Assembly: GCA_000310025.1 (NCBI GenBank)
Contig: FN649742.1
Coordinates: 1,472,100-1,536,099 of the forward strand
DNA length: 64,000 bases
Source of the DNA: Ectocarpus siliculosus
Taxonomy: Eukaryota; Sar; Phaeophyceae; Ectocarpales; Ectocarpaceae
Reading direction: 5' to 3'
Part shown: piece after piece, positions 49,895-63,960 of the stretch
Position numbering within the stretch: position 1 is the first letter of the stretch
Layout: each line of letters opens with the position of its first letter
Notes under the pieces: model-generated
Told to the model about the DNA's origin: nothing
What the model saw: the letters and a program-made list of their open reading frames with translations, nothing else
Database searches by the model: none
Position numbers and translations under genes: made by a program

Positions 49895-52800
49895 ATGAGC
49901 ACGGTTCTCAAAACATGCGTGTCGCTCTTGAGCATCGTTGGGTTGGCCAAGTCTCAGTCATCATGTTCAGAGGGGATCACAACCCTAAATGTGTCAACAA
50001 CGGCTGAAGCCTTGGAACTAAGCGACTCGCTCAACAACTGTGCTGGATCAGGCGAGTTCGAGGTCAATTGGAGCGGGAACGTGCTGCTTTCACAGACTAT
50101 CACAGTTCAAAATAGGACCGCGCTCACGGTGAGAGGAGTTGGTGCCGAAGCAGCTGTAATCGATGGGGGTGATGCTATTAGCCTCTTCCACGTCTTCAAC
50201 GGGTCAGTGCTCATGCTCGACGGGGTGTCGCTCATTGGAGGCAGCGGTGTCGAAAGCGGCGGGGTGGGACTTTGCTGCTCATCCACTCTGCTTGCTGCCA
50301 ACAGCTCTTTCGTCGGCAACTCAAGTCCTGAGGGAGGTGCGAAGAACTGCTTCGTTCGGAGTGCTACAGCAGTAATTCGATTTTGTGTCATTTGCGCCTC
50401 AAAAGTTGGTCTCTTTGCTTCCTTAGAAAATGTCGAGATAATGCTATGCATTCTAGAGGAGTCAAGAGGGAATGTGTTGAAAGACTTTGCAGTGAGTGGA
50501 GAAGGGAAACGTGCTCGATACTCCGCGAAGAGGTTTATCTTACAAACTGGAAAATCATATGGTGGATGGACTTTGGAGAATAGTTGGGTGGGGGAAAGGG
50601 ATGCTCCGGGATTGTGTCTCGCCCCCCGCTTCAAAACGTCTACGCCGCAGTAGTGAATACCACCGTCTACAAGTAGATGCCAGATTCTACCTTGCAACTG
50701 TACTGCTGTTTGAACACGCGAATAGCCTAAGCACATATATGTGTGGATGAAAACAGTTTTCGGGAGGAGATATTGTCAGATCCGTCCGTAGCTTTTCCAG
50801 ACATGCGATGTGGACCTGGGCAAATGCAACCCTACACATCGTATTGAATACCGTGTAGTGTGAGTTTAATGGTCATTCCTGCCTGACGTATGATGACACT
50901 GCCGTGTACAGAGTATTGGTTTAGGCCCATGATGGAGTTGATAGTGTCAAGTAGACTTCCTGACGTGAACTGAACGCCAGCAAACCGAGTTGTGAAACAC
51001 CAAAACAGCAATTCGGCGTGCTGCGCTCCAACTCTTGCCGACGCAAGAGGCAACGCACTACGGCCCCTCCCGGTGATCGCAGTACGGCATATATGCTTAA
51101 CCATGTTCACAGAGGGGGACAGCGGGAACGAGCTACGGAGGTGGGGACTACAACATGATAGAGGTAGCCGACAGCTCTTGAAACCCGGAAAGGCCAATCT
51201 AGTTTCCGAAGACGCATCAAACACCGCCTCGAGCGGGAAAACTCTACTTCTTTCTCGTTGCCGATATCCTTAACCCCCTTAAGGTAGTGAGATTGTGTTG
51301 CGCATGGCCGCGAAAGCCAAACTCGTAAGTGCCGAGTTTGTGAAGCAATTGCAGCATTCCTTCTTGTTGTGGACGCACTCCGCCACAAATAGAACACCAA
51401 CGATTGCATTTTTTTCGGGCGCAGGTGCCATCACCTCTCGCGGCAGCACCATCTACATCGGAGGGAACACGACCTTCGCTAACAACACGTCAGGATCGGA
51501 CGGAGGTGAGAAATCTGCTCGAGACCCTTGCGTGTAGTCCAGCATCGCATGACGCCAGAGACGGCGTGGTGTGAGCGTCTTCGCGCAAGTTGGCGGTGTC
51601 AACTTATTCCACGATAGACCCTTTGGCATCACTCCGGCCAGCAGCACCAAACCAGAGGACAACGTGCAGCGGAATCAAAAACAGAGGCAATGAAATCGAC
51701 TGGCGGGCACTCGTTTGCGGGATGTGAAATCATGCTAGTGTTTTGGTATGTTGTGTACCAGATCCAAATATACTCAGCCTGACCGGTAAACATTGGTTGG
51801 ATTTTACCGTATCAAACGAACGCATCGACAGCATGTGACCAACATCCATGAGACCTGGTGCATCCAGGCGTGCGAGGTTGTTGACGGTGCTGACAGTTTT
51901 TTGGCGTTCGCAGAACCCGACACGTCTGCCTGTCTTCACCGCAAAGGAACAAAATTTCATGGCGAGAAGCTAGCCAATAATGTAATCCAGATAAGTGCCT
52001 CCGCTCGGGAAGAAATACAGGTTGGTATTTAACTTGGTGGCCAACAGAACTGGCCCTCAGTCAAGGTATATTTCGTTAAGAAACAGAGGCTCAAATTTTC
52101 ACGAAAAACATGAATATAGGGTTAAGAAACACGGTTTCAGTGGTGGATCCTAGACTACACTATGTATGACAACCTGTGCTCGACACAGTCGCGATGAAAT
52201 ATTAGTCTAAGCCCCGACCCGGTTTTGACGTTTCTTATCTCCGGGCCCGTACTGTATCAGTCCAGAGCCCCCCGCCGACAGTAGGAAACGGGAGGTACTG
52301 TAGATCCCTTTGCTTCATTCGGAAGCCGAGTCACGACCTGAATGCAGGGACTGGAGACGGAACGCTACTACTACAAATGCAACATAAATCCAGAGAGAGA
52401 AGAAGCTATCTTTGCACCTCGACCAAGCCGGGGAGGAGAGTTCATCGCAGATTTTGCCGACCAGGTCAATCACACTCTGCCCTGGAGGTGTGAGGAGGGA
52501 CTTAGATCATCCATCCAACTAAGAAATGAAGCACAGCAGTTAGTCGCCCTCACCATGCAATTCAAATCGTGGCATCCCAGTGCAACTGGTTGGTAACCTC
52601 GTAAGCTTCTAACGTTTCCACATGTGAGTTCGAATCTCGGCGCAGTCGCACGAAGCGGATTTTTTTCTGACGTGATGATGCAAACACTTTGGTGGATAGC
52701 GATCAGTTGGTGTATGGAGAGCAAGAATTCGATTTGACGGTCGACGTGTGAGGAACGGCTGAATCGTTCTCGCGAAGAAAATGCGGGTTAAGCATCGCCC

Positions 52801-55800
52801 TCAAGGAAAGCGAACTTCGTGGCCTTTCTACCGGCTGATTCGTCCAGAACCGCGCCGAAAGGCGGTACACTCCACGTCCATCCAGACTGCATGGGATGAC
52901 AACAACATTTACTTTTGGAGTACGCCCCATCATGAAAAGTGTCGCCACTGGTATGTATCGATAGCGAAACACACGTGGACAACACAAATGAGCCCTTCAG
53001 GTGGGGGCTTCAACACCGCAACGCTAGCCAACAGCTCCTGGAACTCCAAACAGTCGTCGTTCTTTGAACTCTGGAAGACACGTACGAAAGGCCATCTCGA
53101 GCTGAAAACCGTCTGGCTCACGTCGTAACGGACGCGTAAAGCAGCGACGATGTAGCCACGAAAGCATCCTCACCGTGGACACAACCGTGCAACTGAAACA
53201 TCCCGTTAAATGGACCTACATTCCCCGATATCTCGAATATTGTGGGACGCAGGTGCTATCAACTCGTACTACAGCCACTTCATCAGCATCGAGGGTGAAA
53301 CGACCTTCGCTCACAACACTGCAGAACGTGATGGAGGTGAGGAATCATGTATGCCTAGGCACAATCCAGTAGTGGCCATGAAGAGTATCCTCAAAGCCGT
53401 TGCTGGACCATCCTCAAAACAAACCCGGCGTTCCTTCTGTCTTCTGGGCTGTTCACCGCTTTGGTGGAAACTCAATAATGGAAGCACTTCCAGGAGGTTG
53501 GATGGAAGCACTGGTCGGTGGTGGAAGCTTCCATTACATCCATGGAAGCTTCCATGACGTGCATCGAAGCTGTCACCAAAACAAATTCACAGACAGCGTA
53601 GTTTTTGCAAGTAGCGTGGAAGTCGCGGAAGCCATCGGCTACGCTTTCATGAAAATCTTGGAAAGAGTTTCCATGGAAGTGATGGAAGCGTTCATGGAGG
53701 TGGTGAACCAATCCCTTTGTGTTGTTATCCCAGGAACTCCTCACGTCAGTATGCTGCGATAACTCTTACAGCGGCGTTGGCTTGGACGTCCCACCTGGGG
53801 TCACACGGGAGACCACTCAGACATTTTAAGCACAATCATCCTCTATGCAACAAGCACGAGTCACAAAGAACTTTATCTTTACAATCGGATTCCACTTCTT
53901 TCAGTTTTTCTTTCTTCAGGCCGAGTTACACTTTCCGATTGTTCGACAGCTTCTTGGAATGGTGACGGGGGGAAAACAAAAATGGGGTCACTAAAAACAC
54001 AACGAAAACCTCACCATCGACAATATGGATGGACCACGTGTGCAACGGCCGTCCACGTTAGAAGAACCCATGCACACAACCATCCATATTGGAATGCTGT
54101 GTTTGCGGTCTTTGTTCGGGTGCAGGCGCGATCCTCATATGGGGGACTAGCCTTATCATCGAAGGCGATACTGCCCTTGCCATCGAAGGCGATACTACCT
54201 TCACCAGCAATTCTGCGCAAGGGGAAGGAGGTGAGATAGATGTGTTGCGTAGGTGCGATCCGGCAATTGTGCGGATTGGCGTGCATGTCTCGATCAAGTA
54301 GGCGGTGGAAAAAGGTATTCTAGGTCAAGGGTTTATAACCACGGCACCACGTGGAAGAACAGCGATGAACGCCTTGCATTCTTAAGCACGTTAAAACTGC
54401 GCACATTGGTCCAGGTCCACGTAGGCCTGTGTCGATGGCCTCACCAAGTAGCATGGTATATTTTCTTGAAAGCGTTGTTGTCCTTTCCGACAGTACCATG
54501 CGGTATATTTTTGCTCGGTCTTTTGTCCTTGCATTCGGCGCAGATACGGTGGTTGGTGGTGGAATCATCGTGTGGAAATTCCGTCCTATGCTTTGAGACC
54601 ACGCTGTTCTCAGCCACATCTCTGAGGCATCGGTTGTCGCTGGTGACTTGTGTGCGGTGGCACTTCCCACCACATCTGTACAAGTAACTGCGACACATGA
54701 CGTACGTTGACCACACACTTTCGATCTGGTGCTTGTTTGCAAGCATCGCAGTAAATGTACATGCCCATCACATCGTTGTGAACTCTGTTGCGCGTGACGC
54801 AGAAGTCGTGTGTTGCAAACCGAGTATTCAGTCAGTATGGGGCGCTGGTGGGTAGATGGGGGAGGGTGGGGTGTTCGAGGTGTTGTCTCTCGCGGCCCTT
54901 GTCTCCGAGATGCGGAGTACCTTCTTGCGTGCAGGACCCTAGCCCAGGCTTCGATGTTTGCCAAGGCACGTGAAACAAGCCATCCTACGTCGCCGGGGGT
55001 CCCGGAGGCAACCGTAGTGCATGGCGCAGAGCCGGAAAACGTACGCACCACCACCGCAGACTCTCCCATTCCAGATGAGGCACGTTGACCCGCGAAATTA
55101 AACATGCAGCAAATGTGCATCAGCGCAACGCAACCTATCCTTTTTAGGCATCTACCACGTTACACTGAACTTCGCGACAAATCGAATGCCGTGTTCTTTC
55201 ATTTTCGGGCGCAGGTGCTATCCACTCCAGATACGGCCATGCCATCATCATCGAGGGCGAGACAACCTTCGAGGACAATACCGCAACAGAGGGTGGAGGT
55301 GAGACAGAAAGCACGCGAAGGCGCAATGTCAGCAGTGCCCCTTACGGGTGAATCTCATGGCGATTGTGCTACTGCTGGACTGTCGTTGTGCGAGGTAACT
55401 CCTTGAACCTATCTGCGTGTCGCGCAGAGACTGTCCCAGTCAAGCTCACGTGGGCCCTAGGACTGCGTGGCTCATGCAGTGGAGCCTCCAACTTCTGAGC
55501 AACAGTTTCATGATAAGTCAGTGCGCAGATTGAATCTAACTCCCAGGTTCGATGGCGTTGTTGTGATTTTTTTCGCGTGTTTTTTTCCCTCGAGAAAAGG
55601 CACACCATGAAACTGGGCGCAAAGTCCTTGTTCGTAGCATGTATTTGTCCCACGCGACTTGGAGACCAAAATCCAACAACTTTAGAGTGCTCATGGCGGA
55701 GACCGAATGCACTTGCGCCTCGAGCCTATCAGAAGCCTACCTCGCACATCTTGCGGCATGAACAAACTCCCCCACACAAAGAATCTGGCCGAGGGTGCTA

Positions 55801-58800
55801 TCGTACCTGGGATACCCTCGAGGAATCGAGGATCCAGTCCGGGCAGCACGGGCACCCGCTTGCCGCGAAGAATATTGCGAACAGCCCCTGGGACACAGAC
55901 AAAATAAAGTCGATCGAGGTTGCGAAGCACAGCACAGACAGTCTCGAAATGGAACTATTTGTTCGTTTTAATGCTTTGGAGCAGCGTGATTGTATACTGC
56001 GGGGCTGTAAGAGCTCTAGGACAGTATCTTCACGCGCTGTAGGTTGTCCCGCTCAGCGCGGCATATTCGATGTGTGTGTTTCCGTCCGGTTACATAGGAA
56101 CGTTCTGATGTACAATGTTGTAGTCCGCAGCATCCCGCCATGTGAAGCTACACTCAGACATCGCTCTCGTGCCGTGTGCGTTCAATTTTGGGCGCAGGTG
56201 CTTTGAGCACAATTGACGATGGCAGAATCACCATCGAGGGCGAAACGACCTTCGCTCATAATACTGCAGGTTTTGGAGGTGAGACAAAGTCGACGGAAAC
56301 GCACCCTCCACCGTTGACCATTCCGATGGAGGGTATGTGGACATGGTTGCTGACCACCCTCGTGAAAGACGCATTTTTCAATTCTTGAGAACAACGAGGA
56401 AAACCCTCAACAGGCGAGTCAAGCTCACGAAAGCCGTCCTGTCACAATGTTTACGGCAATGGGCAGTATGCCCAACGCTGTATCGACGAGAATGAATCCG
56501 AGACTCAAGGGAGAAACGCTGTCACACAGTACACCACAACAGTGTGTGTTTGCGATGAACTTCCGAAGATACATATTTTCGTCACAACCAAAGGGTAAGG
56601 GTCCCATCACTACCCGTTTGGGCCGTCCTTGATTGTAGACGTAGACAACGTCAAAATCGTCTGGAAACAAGCACTTTAGAGCCGCCACTTGCAGCCTCGG
56701 GATCAATGAGAGGAAAGCAAGAGGCTGGTTATCGGGGATCAATATGAACCAGTTTAGTCTTTCGGATATCAAGGAGAACAGGTGTTTCGGAAAGCTTACC
56801 TTAGAAAACTGAGGGCAGACGAGCTCCTGAACGGCTTCTTCGCACTCTAAACATAGTCTAGGACGTTATTAGGCGCAACAACGGCGCCCATAGCAAGAAG
56901 AACGGCAAAAGATACTAGGTTCGAACAGTAACATATTTGTATTCCAGCATAAAAGAGAGGTTTTGGATAGCGTTTCAGACACCAGGTTATCGTGAAAAGG
57001 GGGCGTTGAGAGATATAATCCTCTTCTACATTACCCCCTCCCCCCCCCGCGCCAAGTGGAGGCGAATTGGGCAAACAAGAAGAGGGGTAGACAACCCACG
57101 GAGTGGGTCAAGGTTGTAGATGACGTATGGAAGGGAATCAAAATCGACGAAGTTGAAACGCTGGAAACGGAAGGTCTAGAGGGGTACAAGAAGAAGATAC
57201 CTGTTGCTTTTGCCAAGAGAGAAGAACAGAATCTATGACAAGAAACCAAGGGTAAGGAGGGTCTGGAAGTGTACGGAATGTTGAAAGAAGGAATAGGGTT
57301 CAAGGATTACCTGCAGGGACAAAGCTTAAGGTCAAATTCAGGACCGCGGACATTGGCCTCCGAGAACGTTGACGAAGATGTCGGAAGTTTGACGATGACG
57401 ACGACAAGTTCAAATGTAATTGCGTCTCCGAGTGCGAAGACCGGATTCATGTAGTTGCGGAGTGTTCGTTGTACAAGAAGGAGAGGGAAGTGTACATGAC
57501 TGAGCTGGGAAAAGTAGAAGGAAGGTACAGGGAGATGTTTGAGGCATGGGATAGCCAGGAGAAGACGATAGTTGTACTCGGGCATAGGGAGTGGGTTGAG
57601 AAGGCGAGAAGTGACACCGATAGGATAGATATGTAGACTAGGGAAGACATTTTTGAGCCACCTTTGGCGAAGGAAGGAACGATTTTTTTTCTTGTCTTCG
57701 CTTCGAATCAGCGCTCACAGCACTAGTGCCGTTTATTCCAACCCGTGGTCACACAGAAGGGCCCCTCTCTACCCTCCCCTCCTGCGGTACGTTGCCTTCG
57801 GTTTTTAATGCGAGAAGAGTTCAGCACTCTCTTCCCTCTGTGTACACGTGTACACACGAACTAGCGCTATCCACTAGGCCAGGAGCGGCGGAAGCGAGAG
57901 AAACACTCACTTTGCCAGAAAATCTCGCCTACGCCGGGATTCGAACCCTTGACCTGACCTCTAGCAGGTTTCGAGGATACCAACTAGACCACCGGGGCGA
58001 CCGGTTGTTGGCCATCGGTGATCGGTCGTGTGGGAACAATGCTCCGTCCTCTCGCGTGGTCGATGGTAGAACCGCTAAGGCATGCAAAACATAAGAGTAC
58101 CCCCCCCCCCCCCCAGTTTAGGAGTTCTATTTTGTGTCTGCTAGAGAATAACAAGGCTTAACGGGGTAACCGGTGCTCGACCGACTGGGGGCGCGGCGGG
58201 TCGATGCTCTTCTTCAAACTCTTCTAAGCGTTGTTTTTCGTTGTTGCACCCGTCAGTAGAAGTCCCACAAATTCGATGGTTTTTTTTTTGTTCCCCACCA
58301 CTTACAGGCGGGAGGCGGAGTTGAACCTGTGAAAATTGCCACCAGAATCAGGCATCTTACCGCGTCGTTCAAAGAAAGAAGGAATCAATCGCCTTTGAGA
58401 GACATTGGGTAGAGGTGGCCCTTTTTCACAGGCCGTCTACGTAGAATTGTTTATTTTATGTATGCCAGAGGCGTGTAGAAGAGACAGGGTCGTTCTTCGC
58501 CGTCGACGGAATTTTCGTACGGGGGTTGCCAACAACACTGCCTGGCTAGATACACACGAGACATCGTCCTGTGGGTCTCTTCGTAGCTATGTGTAATGGG
58601 TTTGAGCCCGTGATTCTCTCTCTTGATTTTCTTGGGCGCCGGTATTTCCCGTTCTGTCTACCGTTTGTGCCTAGAACCCAGGTATTTTACCGTTTTTCTT
58701 CCTCTCCTCCCGCTCTCCTTGTGTCTTCGCTCTCCCCGCTCCAACGCACCCCGCCACCTGACTCTGTATTATGCCACCTGTTTCGTACTAACTTTGTCAC

Positions 58801-61800
58801 CAACTGCCTTCTCTGAACTTCGCTGCACCCGAGACCCAACCAAGCGTGTGTGTTTATTGATCGCCGAACGCATTCCGTTGGACAAACACGTTCGTTGAAA
58901 TCATCGATGCACACAGGACACGCATAGCGGTTTCGCTATTGCCGAGGCTTCCCATCACCCATCCATGTACTCGTGATGCCGCGGCTGAGAGGCCGTGTTG
59001 TAGCCACACGTTACATAACTGTCGAAACTATTTTGTGCGCCGCGGTACGTTGTTGCGTCCCTTCCCCAAGGTGCGGTTTACTTGAGCAATTCCAGCCTGA
59101 GCGTCAACGGCACGGCGGAATGGACCAGCAATGCGGTCTTTCCGAACACCTCTGCTACTGAAGAAGGCACTGATGGAGGTGATACGTTTCCCTATTGTCC
59201 GTTTGGTTGGATTTGTGTCAACACCATTGATCGGGCATGTCATGTAGTAGCACGGCATCGTGGAGCAGGGCGGGACGCTCGCTTGGGTGCCGCATGTGGC
59301 GAGCGCTATTTTCCGCTCCCAAAGAGCTATTCTATCCTTCTATGTAAAGACAATCTCCTCGGTGAATGTCGCTCCTTTCAGCCTCCGCATGGAACCAGAC
59401 TCATTGCATTACAGCAGTGCCTCCATTTCTTTGTTTCTCTTGATTACATTCTACATTGATCTTGCATCCACGGATGGGTCCTTGTATTTTTTTTTGTGAT
59501 ATCGCACAAGTCCGGAGTGCAAGGAGGAAACGGAGAGAGCGCCAGGAAACACTACTTGAGCAGTTCTTCCGTTCTCAACGAACCCGATATGTTCCGGTCT
59601 GCGAGAACATTTTGTTTTTTGCTTTCAGGCATCCACTCGCTCAATTAAGTTCCGGTGCAGGTAGGTTCCCCAACAGCCACCTTGGTCACCCTTAAGTCAT
59701 GTTACTGATACATAGAGAGAACGTCGAAATGCAAAGCCGGGGGACTTTCACGTCATTCCCGGGGCAATGCTACCTATGACCAGCCTTGCCGAATACGGAA
59801 GTGTGCGCTGAAATCTGCTGACGGAGGAAACATGATGATCTATTACGCGGCATGCGCCAAACTTTGCGCGTTTGGCAAAAATGGAAAACGCCGACGAACT
59901 GGCGGAGCGCACGAGAAGTCCTACGTTGTTGTTGGATGGAGAACATAAACTTTGCACCTACCCCTCCATAGGTCACCTTGCGTCGAGATATTTTCTTGCT
60001 GTATCTGACCTGGTCGACAAATCCTCCCTGTTACTATTTGTGCCACGGCGGGTTCGAATCCGGGGCAATCATGCTGCTTGCTGTTTGGCAGGTGCGCTGT
60101 ATTTGACCGAAGGGTCGGACGTCGTCATGGATGACGTCAACGCGTCGTTCACGAACAATTCTGCATTCGCGAACGGAGGTAAGATCTGGAATGCAAGGGG
60201 TTTGACGCTCCGCGCTCACACGTCAGTTTTCGATTCTTGCTGCTGAAGTGGCAACAATCACGCCCTCGACATTTGTCCTCCTCTAACCGATGTTTAGCCA
60301 CTACAATTCCCCTAAAGAAGCAACTCCTTTTTAGTTTCTGCTGCATTGGTTTCTCAGTGGTCGTGAGTCACCGGGACCCCGAGACGTGTTTCCTAAGAAA
60401 AACATACACGTAGAAGCACCTGTAGGTCCTGGAACAATAGTCTAGTTCACCAGGTTGCAGTAGTCCAGAAACAACACAGACCGCAAGGGTATTGAGCAAA
60501 GGAAGCCCCCAAACAATAGCAAAGACGCCAGTCGTCGTTGCGACGAGAAAGAAAACTGACGAGCAAAAAGGGTACACGGTGTGCGATAGACAGCTACGAC
60601 AATGACACATTGTCTATCGTCATGACACCCTCACACCCTTGTGAAGGTTTACTACAGGGATGCGTCACCATTTTTAATCAAGAACCTGCTTGAAAAGATC
60701 GAACTTAAATACTCAGTAAAGCGTCGCTGCTGGGCTATCCTGTAGGGGAAATAGAAATCGAGCCTTGAGCAACATAAGAGGTTCTTGAGGCATCTTCTTG
60801 TTGACCCCTGGTACCATTTTCCGCGCAACCTCTCATCACATCTGTCAACAAAATCTGTACTTGAACAGAGCAGAAATCGCCCCTCCTGGGTACACCAAGC
60901 GAGACAGACACATGTGGTGTAATGGCAACATCTAACCTTCGATTCTCCGTATGCGTGCGTTTCTTTTTTCGAGCAAGCTTGTTTGAGAGTCATCTTGCGA
61001 GACCCGCTCTTGTTCCTAACCATGCACGCAGTTGTATGATTTTCTACACGGCAAAGTGCCGGTGCAGCCTTCTCGGCTTTTCTTAAAGCCTCTTCAATCT
61101 CCCTCCAGCGGTGACTTACTTACGCTGTTTGTCTTGCCGGACCGCAAACGCAGGGGCCATAGCAGCGGCGGACGGCTCTTCTTTGACCATCATCGGCCCA
61201 ATATCGTTTGTAAACAACACAGCGGAGGGCAACGGAGGTAAGGACTCACCCGGCAGTTGCATCGACACTGCCATGGGGCGAGAGAGACAAAGAGCTAAAC
61301 GAGAGTGAAGAGGCAATGTTTGTTATCTTTTGTAGACAAGCGTTACTCCTGACATGTATGCTTTTCCGAAGAGTTATAACAAGAAATATGGCGAGGGCAA
61401 CTGGATTGGGACGTTAGGAGTGTGAGCGGGCACGACAATCAGTTTTGCAAATCGAAACTCTTCACCCAGACGCTGTAGTTCGCCGGTCGGTGACGATACA
61501 TAATAAGTTTCATGCCATGGGCATGTTCCAAGTATAGACTGTACATATTTAAGCACTAACTTCTATTGCGAAATGTATCTCTGTCTTGCCGTATGAAACT
61601 GCTCGTTCGTTCGATTGGCAAGGCGCCGTCGCCATGTTCGAGTCGGTGATCGCAACAGGACACGGGATAACCTTCACCGGCAACGAGGCCAACACGGGAG
61701 CAGGGGGAGGGATATATTCGTCTGTGTCTACTGCCTCTATCAACGGTTCAGTTTTCACGGCAAACCAGGCGGTCTGGGGCGGAGGTCGGTGCCAGTTTAT

Positions 61801-63498
61801 CTCTGGGAAATACACTACACATGTACAGATAGATAGTCTGAATAGGGCCCTGATGTTTGTCTCTACGAGGGTGGCGATGAAAAACGAAGAACGAACTGTG
61901 TTCAAAATAACCTTGAAAGATGGCAGACAGAAGATCTACGTCTTCGTTGCTGCAAGCGCCATATTCTCCTGCAACAACAGCAGTGAGGGATACGCCGTTA
62001 CGGGTGCGAAGACGGCTAAGACAACGCCCATGCGTTGAAAACGGCGCGGCGGTGCATCATCGATAAAAAAAGTGTTTGGGCGTCATTTCGCGATCAAGAT
62101 AGCTTGTACTTGCTCGACGTAGTCGTGACGGAATAACCAGTCGGTTTATGAGGTGGTGTCCTCGTCAGCAGGCGTACGTTGGACACCTCACTAAAGACGT
62201 CTACCCGCTACGCTACGTGCTTTTGTTGGACGCTAAACAAAACGGTGATCAGGCATGGCTCTGTTTTCATCAGGCTCGGTTTGGAATGTAGAATCTCCAG
62301 ACGACTCGGGACCCGCAAACACGACCACGTGTGTCTTCGAACGGAACAGCGCCGAAGACGGCGGTGCCATTTACAGCGCCGCAGGCTACGACATAATCAG
62401 CGATTCATGGTTCGAGGACAACATAGCAGGTAAGAAACCGAGCACAAGATCGAGTGGTACATCCTCGCATTAAGAAGAAACAAAAATGGTTCAAGCTCAG
62501 CTGGTCCTCAACATAGAAGCAGTTTAGTTCTTGGAGAGAGACGAACGAACGAAGGAACAGAGGCTGGCCGAGAAACTACATGCGTTTTTTCACCGACAGA
62601 GCTCCAGACACACGTTGTAGATGATTGTCGGTGTAGTTTACCTCGAGGCATGCCACGTAAGCTCTTGGGGTGCTCCGTGGCTCACGCTGACTTGGGTGCC
62701 TCTTCCCCATGTGCCAAGAAGATACAAAAGAAACGCATATATCCTACAGCGTCAGTGCGCAGTAGGTTAAGAATGTTTTAACTCCGTACAGCACTTTGCC
62801 CCGCCGTGAATAAAATAACCTCTTTCTGTGACTAGCAGCCCGAGGAATAATCCGTTGTTTCCTTTTCGCTGTGAAACGCACGCACGAGCTGTACAAGAAT
62901 TACGCGGAAACGAGGGGGTGACGCTGGTCGTGGTTTCAGCTGTTGTTTCACAGATTAAACGAAGCCGAAAGCCTGCGTGCGTCCAAGAACAATGGCGACG
63001 AAGCGAACATGAACTACCTCTCAAGTACCACGCCGCACTGCTCACCTAACCCTTTCCGTCTGTTCCTGGTAATAAATCGACGCAACCAATTGTACCTGTG
63101 TTGCATATGGCAGTTGGATCGCGCGGGGCATACCTCCATTCCGGCCTCCTGGTTAGCTTGGCCGACACCACCTTCGTCGGAAACAGAGCCGGTGCCGCTG
63201 GGCTGGCTGTTGCAAGCCTCGGGATCATGGAGAATGTTACCGACACTACCTTCGAGTCCAACACATATTATTGCCAGTCTGGGCAGTATGGCTACGACAT
63301 CAGCGCGGATGAAGACGAGGTAAATGAAAGTTACCGAGGAACCGACTCTTTACCCAGGCCAGCATACCTTATTTTGTGCTTTCGTCGAGCACACGTGTTT
63401 ATTTTGCAGCAAAAAGCACTCGATGTGAATATTTTCGGCAGGAAACAATCTTAATCTTTCTCGACATTGTAGTCCTGTGGGCAGTATTCACAGCACGG
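49895..63498 (+). CDS. Secreted modular beta-helix protein with PMP-type GGA(I/V)/FxxN repeats (continues to right edge)
   Basis: Exons: 49895-50336, 51425-51505, 53253-53336, 54126-54230, 55215-55298, 56198-56278, 59071-59178, 60092-60178, 61154-61237, 61623-61784, 62274-62429, 63114-63319, and probably 63473-63498 and beyond. The first exon gives a signal peptide (MSTVLKTCVSLLSIVGLAKS) and the start of a right-handed parallel beta-helix, with several N-x-S/T sites. Exons 2 to 9 each encode one 27-36 residue repeat: GAITSRGSTIYIGGNTTFAN is typical. GGA(I/V/L) is rebuilt across each phase-1 junction and FxxN sits mid-repeat, the signature of chlamydial polymorphic membrane proteins and of similar proteins in brown algae. 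Exons 10-12 hold longer modules; exon 12 ends in a Cys-containing acidic stretch. A likely cell-surface or wall protein. No catalytic residues of pectin lyases were identified. An ATG at 49859 is an alternative start. Confidence 0.85.
52582..52662 (+). repeat. tRNA-like (SINE head) fragment
   Basis: It has a box A-like GGTTGGTAACC and box B-like GAGTTCGAATCTC at tRNA spacing. The T-arm has mismatches and no acceptor stem closes, so it is not a functional tRNA gene. It is probably a SINE remnant in an intron of the beta-helix gene. Confidence 0.5.
53470..53705. repeat. GGAAGC/TTCCAT-rich intronic repeat
   Basis: Many interspersed GGAAGC and the near-palindrome TGGAAGCTTCCAT lie in the intron after the module exon 53253-53336. 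It can fold into short hairpins. Confidence 0.65.
57050..57637 (+). pseudogene. LINE (non-LTR retrotransposon) 3' fragment
   Basis: Plus-strand frames encode NKKRGRQPTEWVKVVDDVW and, in another frame, a CNCVSECEDRIHVVAECSLY motif followed by KKEREVYMTELGK and a stop at 57635. A Cys-His motif of this CxC...H..C form near 'ECxLYxxER' is typical of the C-terminal end of LINE reverse transcriptases. The frame breaks and missing RT show a 5'-truncated dead copy. It lies in the 2.8-kb intron before the module exon at 59071. Confidence 0.6.
57682..58002 (-). mobile_element. tRNA-derived SINE, copy 3
   Basis: Same family as copies 1 and 2, with an 8-base tail (T-run 57683-57690). It starts about 45 bp after the LINE fragment's stop codon. 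A small duplication, GTGTACACGTGTACAC, is private to this copy. Confidence 0.9.
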
Positions 63499-63960
63499 GT
63501 AAAGTTGTGGAAATCACTCGACCTGTGATTTCGCAGCCGTTCTTGCTGCTGTCTTTCGCCTTGCTAGCCATGCCCGTCAGGGATTGAACGTTAAGTGCAC
63601 TAACGCCCCGCCTCGCTCGCGTCCCCGCTTGACAGGTTTCCGGAACCTGTCGATTCGACGAAGTCTGTACAGGCTGCGCTGTCTCATGTGCAGAGATACC
63701 GGAGAGTGTAGTCGTCGCCAACGACGCCTTCGTGCCCATGTGTGAAACGGTGCGTATGTCTAACCAACGCGGCGGGCGCCGTAAGAGTCGCAAGGCGTGG
63801 TTCCATCGAAAGGAGGGCGAGATTTACGTGTTTTTACCCACTGCAGCTATTACCACCTTCGTACGCCTTGTCAATGCCGATGGAATTAGCGCTCCCAGCG
63901 GATAGCTCTCGACAAAGACTCCCCTCAGTCAACTACCGGGTGAGGGCCGGGTAGAGGCCC
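63473..63960 (+). CDS. Probable further 3' exons of the beta-helix gene (unresolved)
   Basis: After the exon ending 63319 there is a possible 26-nt exon (63473-63498, donor GTAAAG). Two later acceptors, at 63693 and 63847, open frames such as PESVVVANDAFVPMCET. Phases cannot be fixed with the sequence available before the right edge. Confidence 0.3.

Follow-up and report, generated by a model that had tools for sequence, protein, structure and literature searches.

In brown algae, layouts with one repeat per exon have been linked to candidate immune receptors. These include the leucine-rich repeat (LRR) ROCO genes, which were reportedly the subject of Zambounis et al. 2012. Teng et al. 2024 (PMC11378527) report that each LRR of the brown-algal ROCO genes lies in a separate 72-bp phase-2 exon, and they describe exon shuffling, alternative splicing, and diversifying selection. 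A second set of receptor candidates with repeat exons, the brown-algal NB-ARC-TPR genes, was reportedly the subject of Teng et al. 2023. We describe here a gene with such a layout in a 64,000-nucleotide stretch of Ectocarpus siliculosus DNA (assembly GCA_000310025.1, contig FN649742.1, positions 1472100-1536099 of the forward strand; this whole stretch, on contig C17 in our numbering, is called the window). The repeat of this window gene is the GGA[I/V/L]...FxxN coil found in the chlamydial polymorphic membrane proteins (Pmp; families PF02415 and TIGR01376). The gene is probably a cell-surface adhesin-like or receptor-like gene whose array of one-coil exons arose at least partly by old tandem exon duplication and is now constrained. 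This reading draws on computed results: a spliced frame that stays open, sister genes with the layout, the tree of C-terminal sequences, traces of duplication, and lack of recent turnover.

Chlamydial Pmp autotransporters are defined by a C-terminal beta-barrel. The window protein shares their coil repeat but has a predicted multi-transmembrane (multi-TM) C-terminus instead and no barrel family, and the chlamydial genes are bacterial and intron-less; Pfam scans of both halves of the protein, at E values up to 1, returned no autotransporter family. With the LRR-ROCO genes, the window family shares the kind of organism, one structural repeat per exon, a single intron phase, and the possibility of gaining or losing exons in frame. 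It differs in the repeat (beta-helix coil rather than LRR), in the phase of its symmetric exons (1 rather than 2), in exon length (mostly 78-90 nucleotides [nt] rather than 72 nt), and in context (a predicted membrane-anchored ectodomain rather than a GTPase with ROC-COR domains). Moreover, intense shuffling and diversifying selection are reported for the ROCO genes, whereas neither recent exon shuffling nor diversifying selection was seen here in one genome. The likeness to the NB-ARC-TPR genes lies in the repeat exons; the tetratricopeptide repeat (TPR) and the NB-ARC domain set those genes apart. PF02415 was the sole family above its cut-off in the Pfam scans, which thus placed neither LRRs nor a ROC-COR GTPase in the window protein. 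We found no description of a one-coil-per-exon layout in the Pmp/beta-helix family among open-licence PubMed Central (PMC) papers; one transcriptome paper (PMC10573767) lists a Saccharina unigene as a polymorphic outer membrane protein, in a passage that does not mention gene structure.

Exon layout of the window gene

As modelled, the putative splicing of the window gene joins 17 exons into a single open frame of 1107 amino acids (aa); exon structures here and in the paralogues below are predictions from one genome's DNA. The initial annotation had proposed eight consecutive one-coil exons at 51425-61237, and the analysis bore this out: exons 2 through 9 encode one Pmp-type coil apiece, all eight have an AG acceptor and a GT donor when the splice sites are re-derived, and the spliced protein matched Pfam PF02415 (99.5 bits; cut-off, 20.6; E value, 1.2e-29; 8 stretches) and TIGR01376 (107.3 bits; cut-off, 15; E value, 9.8e-32; 9 stretches). 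The accompanying claim that coil exons are interchangeable in frame also stood, with exon lengths all divisible by 3, introns 1-11 all in phase 1 (13 of the 16 introns overall), and a Gly codon rebuilt across introns 1-10; across intron 11, a Val codon is rebuilt. The introns had been placed between the two Gly codons of GGA and needed to be moved, since the cut lies inside the second Gly codon, after its first base (GGA G^GT GCN). The interval first assigned to the gene, 49895-63319, does contain the coil exons, but the gene runs on: with 1107 aa, its 3' end falls at about extended coordinate 66792 on contig C17, outside the window, and the run of exons in phase 1-1 extends from exon 2 to exon 11, the last two of which hold about two coils each. 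A donor decamer, GGAGGTGAGA, occurs four times in the window against 0.15 expected, always at the end of a coil exon (exons 2, 4, 5, and 6), although this pattern was picked after the exons had been seen.

The repeat family suggests that the coils would fold into a right-handed beta-helix; among solved structures, the repeat part had a single weak match (E value, 7e-4) and the TM part one at an E value of 0.1. Past the window, the C-terminal part is Cys-rich over a stretch, a simple hydropathy scan picked out about eight hydrophobic segments in it, and no Pfam family exceeded its cut-off in the C-terminal half. Because of this Cys-rich part and these segments, the protein, for which a signal peptide was read by eye, is probably membrane-anchored and not secreted as first annotated. 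Its surface location and its role in binding are putative.

Split and uninterrupted paralogues

Paralogues retrieved from the genome (189 Mb in 492 contigs) were scanned for coils with a profile derived from 30 coil exons. A query with the C-terminal part of the window gene gave 76 genome matches, and the family is therefore large. The one-coil-per-exon layout, with the coil exons at the same position, was found in six more genes: C14, C21, C9, C5a, C5b, and C5c. Over the seven split genes (the window gene being C17), 52 coil exons were curated (51 listed and one added), all with lengths divisible by 3 and two of them, C5a.4 and C5c.4, with two coils; one C9 coil without a clear acceptor was excluded. 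The 51 listed exons all have an AG acceptor, 50 have a GT donor and one a GC donor, and in 49 the last bases are a Gly codon plus G; the added exon has a GC donor. More independent support for the split layout than these curated exons came from the position of the coil matches: in the split genes, each open frame holds one such match, or two at most. A genome-wide count of the coil-exon pattern was discarded, since the raw count was uninformative (172 matches versus 155 in a reversed control); only the clustering of matches, among the matches listed, on C5, C9, C14, C17, and C21 was informative. In C5b and C5c, the TM exon 17 is cut into several matches, pointing to extra C-terminal introns in this sub-group.

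Twelve of the paralogues examined carry their coils in a single frame (C24 and C25 in two): C155, C201, C2, C36, C8, C24, C14b, C13, C11, C351, C16, and C25. The main frames of the uninterrupted paralogues (C155, C201, C351, and others) span 438-1420 aa. These genes have an N-cap, coils, a Cys-rich part, and a multi-TM C-terminus related to those of the window gene, but their coils lie in long open frames, and 3 of 11 have near-identical coils; the N-cap homologous to exon 1 was found by tblastn in split and uninterrupted paralogues alike. Three further candidates were set aside: C474, whose coils are spread over overlapping frames, C33, whose matches are weak, and C455.

A C-terminal tree of 19 genes separated C17, C14, C21, C5b, C5c, and C455 from 13 uninterrupted-type genes (the 12 above and C474) with a branch support of 100%. 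Five of the seven split genes are in this tree; C9, with an assembly gap at exons 16 and 17, and C5a, whose C-terminal exons lie outside the retrieved sequence, were left out. When a more distant gene, C6, was added, the split branch had support of 100/100 and the uninterrupted branch 97.3/95, and C6 fell between the two clades. C6 has the N-cap and three weak coil matches (6.6 to 12.3 bits) in one open frame, and judging from this relative the uninterrupted state may be the ancestral one.

The reverse order of events, in which the split layout is the ancestral gene structure and the uninterrupted paralogues are intron-less retrocopies, would fit the length of the uninterrupted arrays and the fresh expansion of 3 of 11 of them; we nevertheless hold it to be very improbable. 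The window gene has an intron between exons 16 and 17, and matches to these two exons lie 165 to 568 bases apart in 12 of the 13 uninterrupted-type genes (C25 has no exon 16 match), a spacing that would be expected had these genes kept the intron. Whole-gene retroposition would have removed that intron, and a whole-gene retrocopy origin was therefore rejected, whereas a partial conversion of the uninterrupted genes by complementary DNA is possible.

The nearest C-terminal relative of the window gene, C455 (71%), has an in-frame stop in its TM part and an adjoining gap of 6.4 kb, and no coils were found upstream of its C-terminal part; it is either a pseudogene or an incomplete assembly.

Growth and stability of the coil arrays

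Upstream flanks of 80 nt were compared for 28 pairs of window exons and for 967 cross-gene control pairs. Exon pairs 2-5, 4-5, and 5-6 scored 36, 30, and 42, respectively, against a control maximum of 27, and the downstream flanks of exon pair 3-5 scored 30 against a control maximum of 29; in each of the remaining split genes, 0 or 1 flank pair lay over the 99% point. This local similarity is taken to indicate an old tandem duplication of exon plus flank among exons 2-6.

A different origin for the layout would be parallel intron insertion at the AG^GT proto-splice site of GGA-GGT codons in a continuous array, that is, at a sequence-level target. For the window gene we regard this as the less probable course, though a possible one, and for the other split genes it is compatible with old exon duplication. 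The uninterrupted C6 relative, with its placement between the clades, and the Gly codon plus G at the ends of 49 of the 51 coil exons speak for such insertion, as does the outcome of comparing 44 introns all against all, whose matches (24 to 370 nt long) were mostly dispersed repeats. The shared intron flanks of exons 2-6, however, need a duplication of exon and intron together, and about eight insertions at homologous sites per gene would be costly. The same comparison led us to reject an origin from an introner-like intron family, as no common intron element was found among the 44 introns; very old intron insertions are possible.

Within-gene DNA identity of coils averages 0.53-0.58 in the seven split genes (0.49 when shuffled), and none of their 157 coil pairs, two-coil exons left out, has at least 80% identity. 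Eleven of the 12 uninterrupted genes gave segments for the same comparison (C24 gave none), and pairs with at least 80% identity made up 153 of 210 in C155, 47 of 91 in C201, and 20 of 703 in C351, with no such pair in the other eight. Fresh repeat expansion is visible in these three uninterrupted paralogues. The very long open frame of C351 (1420 aa; 1339 aa in the retrieved piece) contains some identical coils and is a fresh coil expansion without introns.

Exon number among paralogues, which the initial annotation had suggested comparing, proved near-constant, with 7 to 9 coils in six split genes: C17, 8; C14, 7; C21, 7 (with a short gap inside the array); C9, 9 (including the coil without a clear acceptor); C5a, 9 (coils, not exons); and C5b, 8. 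C5c was left out because of an assembly gap. Eleven uninterrupted genes have 8-38 coil segments, counted by another method than in the split genes, and the spread of coil number differed between the two sets by permutation (P = 0.008).

C5a and C5c form an inverted duplicate pair in which six matched exons are colinear, with an omega of 0.21 over 197 codons; two further C5a exons face a 1396-base assembly gap in C5c. The two-coil exon 4 of this pair has a synonymous divergence (dS) of 0.21 versus 0.9-1.5 in exons 1, 2, 3, and 5, which suggests that gene conversion has acted locally between the two inverted copies. Among window exons 2-6, omega ranged from 0.21 to 0.78 and was below 1 in all ten pairs, and for this reason selection for diversity is not indicated.

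These results bear on the initial proposal of an active diversity system, in which unequal crossing-over would shuffle the coil exons and splicing would skip some of them, yielding many surface variants, as has been proposed for the brown-algal LRR-ROCO and NB-ARC-TPR genes. Symmetric phase-1 exons with Gly-restoring junctions, duplication traces in exons 2-6, a coil number of 7 to 9 among paralogues, and the alternative splicing of one-repeat exons reported for brown-algal ROCO genes (PMC11378527) all suit such a system. It is nonetheless unlikely in view of the 157 within-gene pairs, none of which is a recent duplicate, the conserved order and low omega of the six C5a/C5c exons, and the omega values within the window gene. 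In the within-gene comparison over the seven split genes, no sign of recent unequal crossing-over or exon turnover was seen.

Under the reading that we prefer, an old array now constrained, Pmp-type coils would form the ectodomain as a right-handed beta-helix, which a Cys-rich stalk and about eight membrane segments would anchor. A phase-1 intron where one coil meets the next (GGA G^GT) would, in one clade of the family, have divided the array into symmetric exons of one coil apiece, with fixed N-cap and C-cap exons on either side. The window array would then have grown, at least in part, through old tandem duplications that copied whole exons along with the adjoining intron sequence (exons 2-6), after which the coils would have diverged under purifying selection with little change in array length. 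Such a layout would permit exon gain, loss, or skipping in frame, and its outcome would be a stable ligand- or matrix-binding surface, not an active diversity generator. The split arrays look old, stable, and under purifying selection.

Several points weigh against this reading. The splicing model of the window gene was predicted from genomic DNA only, and the expected pattern guided the curation of the paralogue coil exons, which builds in part of the agreement of 52 of 52. The membrane segments and the signal peptide come from a hydropathy scan and from inspection by eye, respectively, and a fold model of exon 1 alone, computed without an alignment, had a predicted local distance difference test (pLDDT) score of 40 and was not used. 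A global comparison of 50-nt flanks did not distinguish exons 2-6 from controls, with 0.60-0.77 in the window and a mean of 0.62 and a maximum of 0.81 in controls. The N-cap tree was poorly resolved and did not recover the split genes as a group. In C21, the matches to exons 13 and 16 contain a stop, and so does a match of C5b to exon 17, its exon there being divided further; C17, C14, C9, C5a (one match only), and C5c have no stop in the matches examined. Some split paralogues, C21 and C5b among them, may be pseudogenes, and the stops in these two slightly lower our confidence. Finally, the turnover contrast between the clades is weak: homogenised genes numbered 0 of 7 split versus 3 of 11 uninterrupted (Fisher P = 0.25), and by Levene's test the spread of coil number gave a P value of 0.08 raw and 0.04 on a log scale.

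We suggest, as a tentative extension, that the family could represent a third, extracellular class of brown-algal exon-modular recognition proteins, built on a beta-helix and not on LRRs or TPRs, the layout having arisen convergently in three unrelated folds; the inter-repeat introns would halt homogenisation and freeze the array, with splicing variation still open. If this were true, the split and uninterrupted sister clades would be a natural experiment on introns and repeat homogenisation. With this layout now seen in a beta-helix family that is probably membrane-anchored, and with a sister clade of uninterrupted genes beside it in one genome, it can be asked whether one-repeat-per-exon layouts generate variants or stabilise repeats.

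Coordinates and minor observations

Predicted exons of the window gene (positions in the window; extended coordinates continue past its end on contig C17)
Feature	Position	Strand	Length (nt)	Phase	Content
Exon 1	49895..50336	+		ends in phase 1	Start codon, signal-peptide-like N-terminus (by eye), putative beta-helix N-cap, first coil(s)
Exon 2	51425..51505	+	81	1-1	Single coil, GAITSRG...TTFANNTSGSDG
Exon 3	53253..53336	+	84	1-1	Single coil
Exon 4	54126..54230	+	105	1-1	Single coil; internal tandem repeat at 54151-54196
Exon 5	55215..55298	+	84	1-1	Single coil; upstream flank can be aligned to the flanks of exons 2, 4, and 6
Exon 6	56198..56278	+	81	1-1	Single coil; upstream flank aligns with that of exon 5 over ~55 nt
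Exon 7	59071..59178	+	108	1-1	Single coil with longer tail; AAG acceptor
Exon 8	60092..60178	+	87	1-1	Single coil
Exon 9	61154..61237	+	84	1-1	Single coil
Exon 10	61623..61784	+	162	1-1	Two coils; AAG acceptor; related stretches in C9 and C21
Exon 11	62274..62429	+	156	1-1	About two coils; related stretches in C9, C21, and C14
Exon 12	63114..63319	+		1 in, 0 out	Last putative beta-helix coils; related stretches in C9, C21, C14, C5b, and C5c
Exon 13	63636..63749	+			Cys-rich segment
Exons 14-17	Extended coordinates 64091-64265, 64822-64908, 65278-65447, 65695-66792 (contig C17)				Cys-rich and predicted multi-TM parts

The tandem repeat in exon 4 has a period of 24, and the exon exceeds its 84-nt neighbours by 21 nt, which resembles slippage within a coil exon. 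Intron 6 (56279-59070), longer than any other coil intron of this gene, contains a fragment common to introns of C5c and C9, and its stretch at about 57360-57640 has a retrotransposon-like appearance by eye. Rfam and tRNA scans of the window gave no match. The EsV-1-7 cysteine motif family is greatly expanded in brown algae; in keeping with a brown alga, the genome has at least 150 matches to this family (PF19114; 150 of 880 candidates scored), many of them in tandem in single frames.

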